Shown here in pieces: positions 29,025 through 31,484 of a DNA stretch of 34,894 bases. Under the pieces are notes generated by a model. That model had not been told where the DNA came from. It searched no databases and worked only from the letters and a program-made list of their open reading frames with translations. A program made the translations under genes and the position numbers. Source of the stretch: Nitrospirota bacterium (GTDB lineage: Bacteria; Nitrospirota; Nitrospiria; Nitrospirales; Nitrospiraceae); the NCBI GenBank assembly GCA_013388555.1, contig JACAFD010000063.1:1-34894 (forward strand). The letters are read 5' to 3'. Position 1 is the stretch's first letter, and each line of letters begins with the position of its first letter.

Positions 29025-29115
29025 CGCCCGCGTTTTATCGCTTTGATGTGGATCTTAGGAGCAGGGGCCAAAGGCCGAGTGCATGTGCGTGGTTAACCAC
29101 AAAGGAGGAAGTCTG

Positions 29116-29565
29116 ATGGGGTATTTTTCTAAGTTTCTGGGAATCAGCGCAGCGATCATGCTGCTGTCGGTTTCGGCGTACGCAGGCGAAGAGAAAGACC
29201 CACTTAAGGCCCGCGTTCCGGCGGATCAGATGGCTGACGCGAGGGCTATGAAGAATCCGGTTGCCGTGACACCGGAAACCATTGCCAAAGGAAAGGCGAT
29301 ATTCGAGGGGAAGGGCACCTGTTTCAATTGCCATGGTAAGGACGGGGATGGCATGGGTGAGGCTGGTAAGATTTTGAATCCGGCCCCCCGCAATTTTACG
29401 AACTGTAAGTTCCATAAAAAGCGGAAAGATGGTGAGCTTTTCTGGGTGATCAAGAATGGTAGCGCTGGCACAGGTATGGTGCCTTTGATCCCAGCCGCGG
29501 TCACCGAAGAAGAGGCCTGGATGGTCATCAACTATGAGCGGAGCTTCTGCAGAGATAAAGAGTAG
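29116..29565 (+). CDS. Secreted monohaem class I cytochrome c
   Basis: 149 residues from the ATG at 29116, which has AAAGGAGGA 6 bases upstream. The signal peptide ends AYA (residue 23). The haem motif is CFNCH (69-73), with probable distal ligand Met121 in GTGMVPL, and the C-terminal helix EEAWMVINYERSF is typical of small c-type cytochromes. Two further cysteines, Cys97 and Cys145, could form a disulfide. It probably carries electrons in the periplasm; in a nitrite oxidiser it could serve nitrite oxidation or a terminal oxidase, but no partner gene is adjacent. It is monocistronic, with its own strong promoter and terminator. Confidence 0.93.
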   Translation: MGYFSKFLGISAAIMLLSVSAYAGEEKDPLKARVPADQMADARAMKNPVAVTPETIAKGKAIFEGKGTCFNCHGKDGDGMGEAGKILNPAPRNFTNCKFHKKRKDGELFWVIKNGSAGTGMVPLIPAAVTEEEAWMVINYERSFCRDKE

Positions 29566-29586: not shown

Positions 29587-29622
29587 AGAGGGTGGAGGAT
29601 CGTATCCTCCACCCTCTATTTT
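29587..29622 (+). terminator. Rho-independent terminator of the cytochrome c gene
   Basis: A perfect 14-base stem AGAGGGTGGAGGAT / ATCCTCCACCCTCT (29587-29600 and 29604-29617) with loop CGT, followed by ATTTTG. It lies 21 bases after the stop codon. Confidence 0.9.
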
Positions 29623-29678: not shown

Positions 29679-31484
29679 TTAGTGCCCTTCAGCACCCTGG
29701 ATCGCAGCAAGCTTGGTCAATATCAAGGCAGCAGAAGGATCAGTTGAGCGGATCGCCGGAACAGTGACCGGACGCTGCTCCTGATTCTGCTGGGTCTTGG
29801 AGGCCCATCGCACTTTCTGGCTGAGATAGGTCACTGTTTCGCCGAGCGTCACGTCGCCATCCCGGTTGGTATCGGCTTCGCCGCGCAGTGCCCGCAGCAG
29901 GTAGTATGTAAACAGGCCATGCCGGTGCAGGTTGTCCTCCAGCCCCTGCCCTAAGTCGCTGGTTCCTATGAGATGGATAATCGAACTTCCGGTAGGATTC
30001 CATTGGGGGAGGGAGGTCTTGGTTCGGTTATTCGGTCCCACAGGCGACACAATACCATCGAACAGAAACAGGGTGTGTTTGGCTTGTAAGCGAGACAGTG
30101 CTGTTTCCAGATGTTTGAGCGGGTACGATCGTGAGGCATCATACGGGGTTAGAAACACTTCTCCCGTTGATGAGACCGAAGCCAGGCCTGCGAAATAGAC
30201 AATGACGATCGCGTCCCTATTCATGTGAGATGGGAGCCAATCCAATAGGGCTTCGTCGATATCCGAGCGCGTCGCTTTCCAGTCCTGCAGCAAACGGACG
30301 TTGGAGGCAGGCACTCCCCCCAGAGACTGAAAATAGTTCGAGACCATCTCGGCATCCAGGGGAGCGAACTTGCGGGCGACGGCTTGCTGGTCTCGATAGG
30401 ACCCGATTCCAATTGAGATCAAGTAGGTGTGGGGCTGCCGAAACCCCTCTGTTACAGTCGGGACTATATCCACGTCCTCGGGTTTGAGGCCGGACGGTTG
30501 GATCGACAGAGGCAGGGTTTGAGTCGGCGGCTGACTACGGGTTCCTGAATCAGAGACCACCACGTGAATCTCTGCTTTCTGCTGTTGGATAGACTGCGGC
30601 AACGTCGCCACAAATTCGACTGAGCGGGACTGGCCTGGCTGTAGTCCTCCGATCACCACCGTGGTGGTCGGAAATTGGGCGAGTACCCAGTCGGTACCCT
30701 TCAAGGTCGCAGTGACACCCTGAAGCTCCTGTTCTCCTCCGTTCATAAGACCGATGCGCACGAGAAGGCGCTCGCCTCCCTCAAAGACCAAATTGCCGTT
30801 CTCGTCCAGCACAGTGGCCTTGAACGAGAGCGCCGATCGAGGGCTATCGGCCGCTGCTAACTGGATCCGCGCGACGCGCATGAATTGCGTTGAGAGGGCG
30901 ATCCCAGCGTCATGCACAAACTCCCCCATATTGCCGTAATCGCATCGGCGGACACTCGGTTCTGAAATAAGTCGTTGGTGGTGTGTGACGGACAGGGTCT
31001 GCTGGCCAAGTTCCTTTCCCGCAGCATCCTTAAAGGTTAAGAGTGTTTCGATGGCTATGTCCGCAGGCACCCGGTCGTAGACACTATCGGTCCAGAGTTT
31101 GAGGCTCGAGCGTTGGAGCGTGAGCACAATTTCCGTGTCGGGCCGGCTCGGCGCGGCAATTCCGCCATCGATAGTCACGGCCGCAAAGGTTTGGGAAGCC
31201 GCGTCAATCAGGATCGATGCGAGCTCTTCTCCCGCGTGAAGTTCGCGCGGGCTATTGCACCCATCGATATATGGCATCTTGAGATTGGTGAAGGAGGGGT
31301 CGAATGTCAGCTTGATGGAGTTGGCCAGACGCGGGCCCATATCAGGTAAGGGGGTTCGCTGAAACATCGAAGTCACCTTCTCACACCCCCACAGGCCACT
31401 CATGGTAATGAGGAAACACAAGAGGAGGGCACCATGCACTGTGAGTCGTTGAGATGAGCCTGTTGTGTGTCGTTCGAAGAGCAT
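29679..31484 (-). CDS. Lipoprotein with catalytically dead caspase-like (C14) domain
   Basis: 601 residues. A signal ends in LWGC (Cys34). Residues 45-210 form an unrecognised N-terminal domain; 215-315 look like an Ig/CARDB-type beta module (VLDENGNLVFEGGERLLVRIGLMN). Residues 352-560 have the caspase-like order: YLISIGIGSY, DAEMVSNYF, a first catalytic strand, a second catalytic strand, HRHGLFTYYLLRALRGEAD. In active C14 peptidases the strands end in a GHG His and a DxCHSG Cys. Here they read YFAGLA (His replaced by Leu434) and DGIVSP (Cys replaced by Ile478), so peptidase activity is unlikely. A calcium-loop-like DTNRDGDVTLGE (538-549) follows. It is presumably periplasmic and membrane-anchored; the role may be binding or scaffolding. 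Confidence 0.85.
   Translation of the reverse strand: MLFERHTTGSSQRLTVHGALLLCFLITMSGLWGCEKVTSMFQRTPLPDMGPRLANSIKLTFDPSFTNLKMPYIDGCNSPRELHAGEELASILIDAASQTFAAVTIDGGIAAPSRPDTEIVLTLQRSSLKLWTDSVYDRVPADIAIETLLTFKDAAGKELGQQTLSVTHHQRLISEPSVRRCDYGNMGEFVHDAGIALSTQFMRVARIQLAAADSPRSALSFKATVLDENGNLVFEGGERLLVRIGLMNGGEQELQGVTATLKGTDWVLAQFPTTTVVIGGLQPGQSRSVEFVATLPQSIQQQKAEIHVVVSDSGTRSQPPTQTLPLSIQPSGLKPEDVDIVPTVTEGFRQPHTYLISIGIGSYRDQQAVARKFAPLDAEMVSNYFQSLGGVPASNVRLLQDWKATRSDIDEALLDWLPSHMNRDAIVIVYFAGLASVSSTGEVFLTPYDASRSYPLKHLETALSRLQAKHTLFLFDGIVSPVGPNNRTKTSLPQWNPTGSSIIHLIGTSDLGQGLEDNLHRHGLFTYYLLRALRGEADTNRDGDVTLGETVTYLSQKVRWASKTQQNQEQRPVTVPAIRSTDPSAALILTKLAAIQGAEGH

Follow-up and report, generated by a model that had tools for sequence, protein, structure and literature searches.

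The window, by which we mean the whole 34,894-nucleotide stretch of DNA that was analysed (Nitrospirota bacterium, Nitrospiraceae; GCA_013388555.1, contig JACAFD010000063.1, positions 1-34,894), carries on its minus strand an intact open reading frame (29679..31484) for a 601-aa protein with a Pfam peptidase match, which we call the type A pseudo-caspase lipoprotein; its coordinates and residues agreed with the original prediction. The protein starts with a predicted lipoprotein signal peptide (residues 1-33) and the lipid-attachment Cys34 (31383..31484, minus strand; codons checked). The signal peptide and lipobox (LWG-C34) were read by eye, and the cysteine is at least 90% conserved in 47 sequences, in line with the lipid anchor that had been proposed. 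With these elements the protein would qualify as a bacterial lipoprotein. In all 35 type A proteins checked, Cys34, Cys76 and Cys181 were the only cysteines of the mature chain, which fits a lipid anchor and one disulfide in the oxidising periplasm; a periplasmic location is likely.

The gene is convergent with a cytochrome c gene (29083..29565, plus strand), and a terminator-like hairpin with a 14-bp stem (29587..29617, reported on the plus strand) lies between the two. The cytochrome c gene is a conserved neighbour, not an operon partner, at nearly all type A loci of the family, and beyond it type A loci have rodZ, TPR and pfkB-type genes; no operon partner was evident among the type A gene neighbours. 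One genome (G024) had two type A copies, on contigs C38 and C100, and the latter copy (L092) was without the usual cytochrome c neighbour.

The C-terminal domain of the protein (residues 352-575, 29760..30431, minus strand) has kept the caspase fold, as the original prediction held. Residues 358-574 matched Peptidase_C14 (PF00656; E 8.9e-9, 35.8 bits against a cut-off of 21.4), the only Pfam match in the C-terminal region. We modelled the protein with AlphaFold2 from 47 sequences (pLDDT 84.7 on average and above 85 over most of the C-terminal domain) and the best PDB match of the model in Foldseek was the human MALT1 paracaspase domain (3v4o, E 5e-10, probability 1.00), with caspases and metacaspases as further matches; a PDB search with the single sequence of the window protein returned nothing. 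A profile score above the cut-off and a caspase-type alpha/beta fold place the domain in the Peptidase C14 fold family, and the Pfam match, the fold search and the matches in 95 of 101 genomes (its own and 100 relatives) rule out a chance match or artefact.

Both catalytic residues, however, are missing. In ungapped alignments with active relatives, Leu434 (30183..30185, minus strand; VYFAGLA against VYYAGHG) occupies the site of the catalytic His, and Ile478 (30051..30053, minus strand; LFDGIVS against MLDSCFS, motif DSCFSG) that of the Cys; both codons were checked. The same two substitutions had been read from the sequence (YFAGLA and DGIVSP) and they align to GHG and DSCFSG without a shift; the late block that had been noted is also present (HGLFTYY, residues 522-528). 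The caspase domain of the window protein contains no Cys, which excludes an alternative Cys nucleophile and rules out another dyad by a shifted alignment. Of 73 dyad-less domains, 63, that of the window protein included, are without any Cys. The protein therefore lacks the His-Cys dyad of active orthocaspases and metacaspases, and its p20-type caspase fold with a substituted dyad would make it a pseudo-orthocaspase.

The loss of the dyad is not confined to this protein. Most genomes of its family (f1) contain two ancient paralogs, type A and type B (G000:C106 in its own genome), and none of 73 non-redundant relatives belonging to its order had Cys at the catalytic site; most were without the His. 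In type A (49 non-redundant domains) the His site was occupied by Q (21), L (20), V (4), H (3) or M (1), and the Cys site by I (17), T (10), A (5), S (5), M (3), G (3) and others. Type B had R/K at the His site and S/T at the Cys site, while the corresponding residues were N/S and S/A in family f2 and Q/H and P/Q in family f3. As to the suggested check whether the Leu/Ile substitutions are fixed in a clade, the loss of the dyad is fixed, but the Leu/Ile pair itself is a genus-level state. Close homologues with His and Cys, which would have contradicted the original prediction, were not seen, and recent inactivation is ruled out because no relative in the clade keeps the Cys. Hidden enzymatic activity based on a different catalytic residue or chemistry is extremely improbable: Ser/Thr occurs at the Cys site of some relatives and the His survives in a few, but in the window protein both sites are aliphatic in a domain devoid of Cys, and the residues at both sites vary widely between orthologs.

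We placed these proteins in a maximum-likelihood tree built after removal of the dyad columns and the columns directly beside them. Types A and B, f2 and f3 formed a single clade (support 100/100) that lies within the His/Cys orthocaspases, although the long f3 branch is placed with less certainty; the nearest active relatives included proteins with a CARDB and caspase architecture (L116-L120). The whole tree requires two losses, the second in a separate TPR protein family, and several losses within one interval would be compatible with parsimony. As no member has the Cys, loss of the nucleophile apparently came first and affected all lines; loss of the His seems to have followed in most of them, or else a few regained it. 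Selection on the domain has remained strong. The dN/dS of the caspase domain was 0.07-0.20 in ten pairs (Nei-Gojobori), indicating strong purifying selection; in most pairs it was no higher than that of the N-terminal and CARDB domains, and it was similar around the former dyad. These values and the structure model bear out the proposal that the fold is retained under selection, and in f1 the caspase domain is under full constraint. The protein is also retained in genomes of 1.7-1.8 Mb (G016, G021, G037). As far as sequences can tell, it is near certain that the window protein is conserved and without the catalytic residues, and that it is inactive and conserved is very highly probable.

The S1 pocket has fared differently from the dyad. 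Asp377 (30354..30356, minus strand), which aligns with the metacaspase NDA motif, and Asp476 (30057..30059, minus strand), two residues before the Cys site, are by alignment the equivalents of the S1-pocket residues Asp95 and Asp211 of TbMCA2 and Asp365 and Asp462 of MALT1. The S1 residues of these two proteins, which in MALT1 include also Glu500, bind the P1 Arg/Lys through the aspartates (PMC4357240), and cyanobacterial pseudo-orthocaspases are reported to retain the acidic pocket (PMC6426788). Each of the two aspartates was present in 49/49 type A domains, so that type A would have the Asp pair of pseudo-orthocaspases; the pair was nearly fixed in type B and f2 and present in 17/17 active domains. 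Asp377 was kept in 9/9 type B and 6/6 f2 domains and in 1/9 of f3. Both belong to the ∼26 positions that are conserved across the active and type A forms. The calcium-type loop of the original prediction was likewise recovered: DTNRDGDVTLGE (residues 538-549, 29838..29873, minus strand) fits the EF-hand pattern D-x-N-x-D-G-x-V-x-x-x-E and is predicted to lie between helices. Its Asp538 and Glu549 were found in 49/49 type A domains and were invariant in the type B, f2 and f3 samples; only ∼60% of the active set had them.

Since the protein is kept, and is still inactive, across a whole bacterial family, it probably binds rather than cuts. That it binds basic segments via the old pocket is quite possible, though we would put it somewhat below an even chance. 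Asp377 and Asp476 could also be kept for structural reasons. The fold might then be a rigid platform for surface contacts, with an idle pocket whose two aspartates hold the fold together. This somewhat unlikely explanation agrees with f3, where 8/9 domains have lost Asp377 yet keep the fold and the EF loop and where one genus has deleted the whole caspase domain, but it sits less easily with the retention of both aspartates in A, B and f2 among positions common to active and type A forms.

The N-terminal 170 residues had been described as an unrecognised domain; this has to be corrected, as an LptE-like fold was recognised in the model. The domain (residues 46-212, 30849..31349, minus strand) is modelled as an alpha/beta sandwich (pLDDT 90, pTM 0.84), and its top PDB matches in Foldseek were LptE from several bacteria, FlgT and other envelope lipoproteins (E 2e-5 to 1e-3), with TM (target) values up to 0.68 (3bf2) for the predicted LptE-like fold. 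Cys76 (31257..31259, minus strand) and Cys181 (30942..30944, minus strand), the probable disulfide partners, were invariant in 45 sequences with identity down to 16%. The window protein had no Pfam match to the LptE family profile (PF04390), and a profile comparison of the domain with the LptE of the same genome by hhalign gave a probability of 0.5%, with no kinship detected. As separate LptE and LptD genes also exist in this genome, the idea that the domain is the genome's LptE was rejected.

A putative CARDB/NEW3-type Ig-like domain (residues ∼216-330, 30495..30839, minus strand) follows, which the original prediction overlooked. We recognised it from a weak NCBIfam match, Pfam/NCBIfam matches of orthologs and beta strands in the model; the window protein itself had no match above cut-off, whereas one ortholog (L057) passed the NPCBM_assoc cut-off and others fell just below the CARDB cut-offs. 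The linker between the N-terminal and Ig-like domains (30837-30845, residues ∼214-216) is ∼29 residues shorter than in most close relatives, which have a length of ∼630 aa compared with 601 aa for the window protein.

Some lineages have done without the caspase domain. In one f3 genus (g32; L141, L143, L144) the ortholog consists of the N-terminal and Ig-like domains and ends after the latter, and tblastn of the available surrounding DNA found no significant caspase remnant downstream. A 1.7-Mb genome (G037) encodes a stand-alone type B N-terminal domain, a lipoprotein of 210 aa without Ig-like and caspase domains (L222:807-1439, minus strand). The caspase domain is thus dispensable in these lineages. 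A weakly similar N-terminal domain is borne by a caspase lipoprotein with intact His and Cys (L220 in G053), and fusion to this domain as the cause of the dyad loss was therefore not upheld. Given its survival in the f3 genus and, alone, in G037, and the weakly similar copy in G053, the N-terminal domain is the most widely kept part of the protein.

Type B genes adjoin a conserved respiratory cluster of cytochrome b, bd-like oxidase, cytochrome c and ethylbenzene-dehydrogenase-like (EB_dh) genes with a divergent ubiA (L162, L163, L164, L174, L165, L166). The f2 genes have this gene context in common with type B, so they are probably type B orthologs, and f3 and type A have one neighbouring lipoprotein gene in common. 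With f2 resembling type B and f3 resembling type A in this way, the duplication seems older than the families. The respiratory neighbourhood of type B, the envelope lipoproteins among the matches of the N-terminal domain and the persistence of this domain alone or with only the Ig-like domain would all suit a lipoprotein that works through its LptE-like part in the assembly of outer-membrane or respiratory complexes, with the pseudo-caspase domain as an accessory. We consider this improbable, as LptE and LptD are encoded separately in the genome, the domain shows no sequence kinship to that LptE by profile comparison, and in most pairs purifying selection on the caspase domain is at least as strong as on the N-terminal domain.

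We also searched the genome of the window (99.5% complete, 327 contigs) with a profile of active domains. It contained three caspase-fold proteins, namely the window protein, type B and a TPR protein (G000:C102, L047) in which the His is kept and the Cys is replaced by Ala; none with an intact His/Cys dyad was found. The TPR protein represents a third pseudo-caspase family, in which Ala for Cys (Asn/Gly in two) is fixed across the family (orthologs L205-L215). Two genomes of 1.7-1.8 Mb (G016, G021) likewise gave three matches each, from the same three families, while G001, G032 and G053 have additional His/Cys-intact members. In other genomes several caspase-domain genes were clustered in one contig region (G206:C33, G310:C92, G222:C8, G113:C1; e.g. 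L170), and the dyads read there were His/Cys-intact. Regulation of an active caspase by a decoy or dimer partner, as with cFLIP or TbMCA4, has eukaryotic precedent (PMC6426788) and would find a partner in those relatives with intact members. We nevertheless regard it as very improbable for the window protein, which seems not to need such a partner, because its own genome, like G016 and G021, revealed no active caspase.

Pseudo-orthocaspases are a known class. Those of Cyanobacteria and Alphaproteobacteria (YS and YN variants) share with the window protein the bacterial caspase p20 fold, the substituted dyad and the S1 Asp pair, and are sometimes the sole caspase form in a genome, as here; 90% were reported from two groups (PMC6426788). 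They have mostly Tyr/Ser at the dyad, whereas the Nitrospirota clade has Leu/Ile, Gln/various or Arg/Ser, and they differ from the window protein in that the latter is a lipoprotein with an LptE-like and a putative CARDB domain. In the accessible part of a 2012 survey, dyad conservation is given as only 57% in Nitrospirae and no description of the family of the window protein was found (PMC3501461). Literature searches for caspase-like proteins in the proteomes of Nitrospira yielded no usable results. The architecture, the lineage and the depth of fixation across the order appear to be undescribed in the literature searched. Among structures, MALT1 (3v4o) is the best fold match and combines, as the window protein would, a caspase domain, S1 aspartates and adjacent Ig-like domains, but in a different domain order. 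MALT1 is a catalytically active, cytosolic, eukaryotic protein. The active CARDB-orthocaspases of the same phylum (L116-L120) resemble the window protein in the caspase domain, the CARDB domain proposed for the latter, the HGLFTYY block and lipoprotein-like start, and differ from it in the intact His/Cys and the N-terminal region. LptE/RlpB is a lipoprotein with a similar modelled alpha/beta sandwich, but its sequence kinship to the N-terminal domain is not detectable and it has a separate gene in the genome.

Taken together, a sensor or scaffold role in the periplasm, as first proposed, is plausible. We tentatively favour, at close to an even chance, a periplasmic, lipid-anchored pseudo-orthocaspase that became fixed in the order to bind without acting as an enzyme. 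The N-terminal domain would sit at the membrane and the Ig-like domain would hold the caspase-fold domain, stabilised by Ca2+, outward. Active relatives use the acidic pocket to grip Arg/Lys before cleavage; here it would only recognise a basic segment of a partner protein. The protein may thereby serve the envelope as an adaptor or scaffold, perhaps in connection with respiratory or outer-membrane assembly. In a wider and rather unlikely extension, the core set of caspase-fold proteins in these Nitrospira-type bacteria would comprise pseudoenzymes only, namely two envelope lipoproteins and one TPR protein, and would have been fixed for as long as the family has existed. The lipoprotein pair would be a peptide reader, with a link to respiration or to assembly of the outer membrane, that uses the old protease pocket as a calcium-stabilised periplasmic receptor for basic segments. 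The role can be tested, given that the acidic pocket is retained and that sister lineages offer natural deletions. Discussion of caspase homologues in bacteria usually centres on proteases of death or stress. A deep, syntenic and near-universal clade that has lost the nucleophile while keeping the fold under strong selection shows that this fold can serve the bacterial envelope as a stable binding module.
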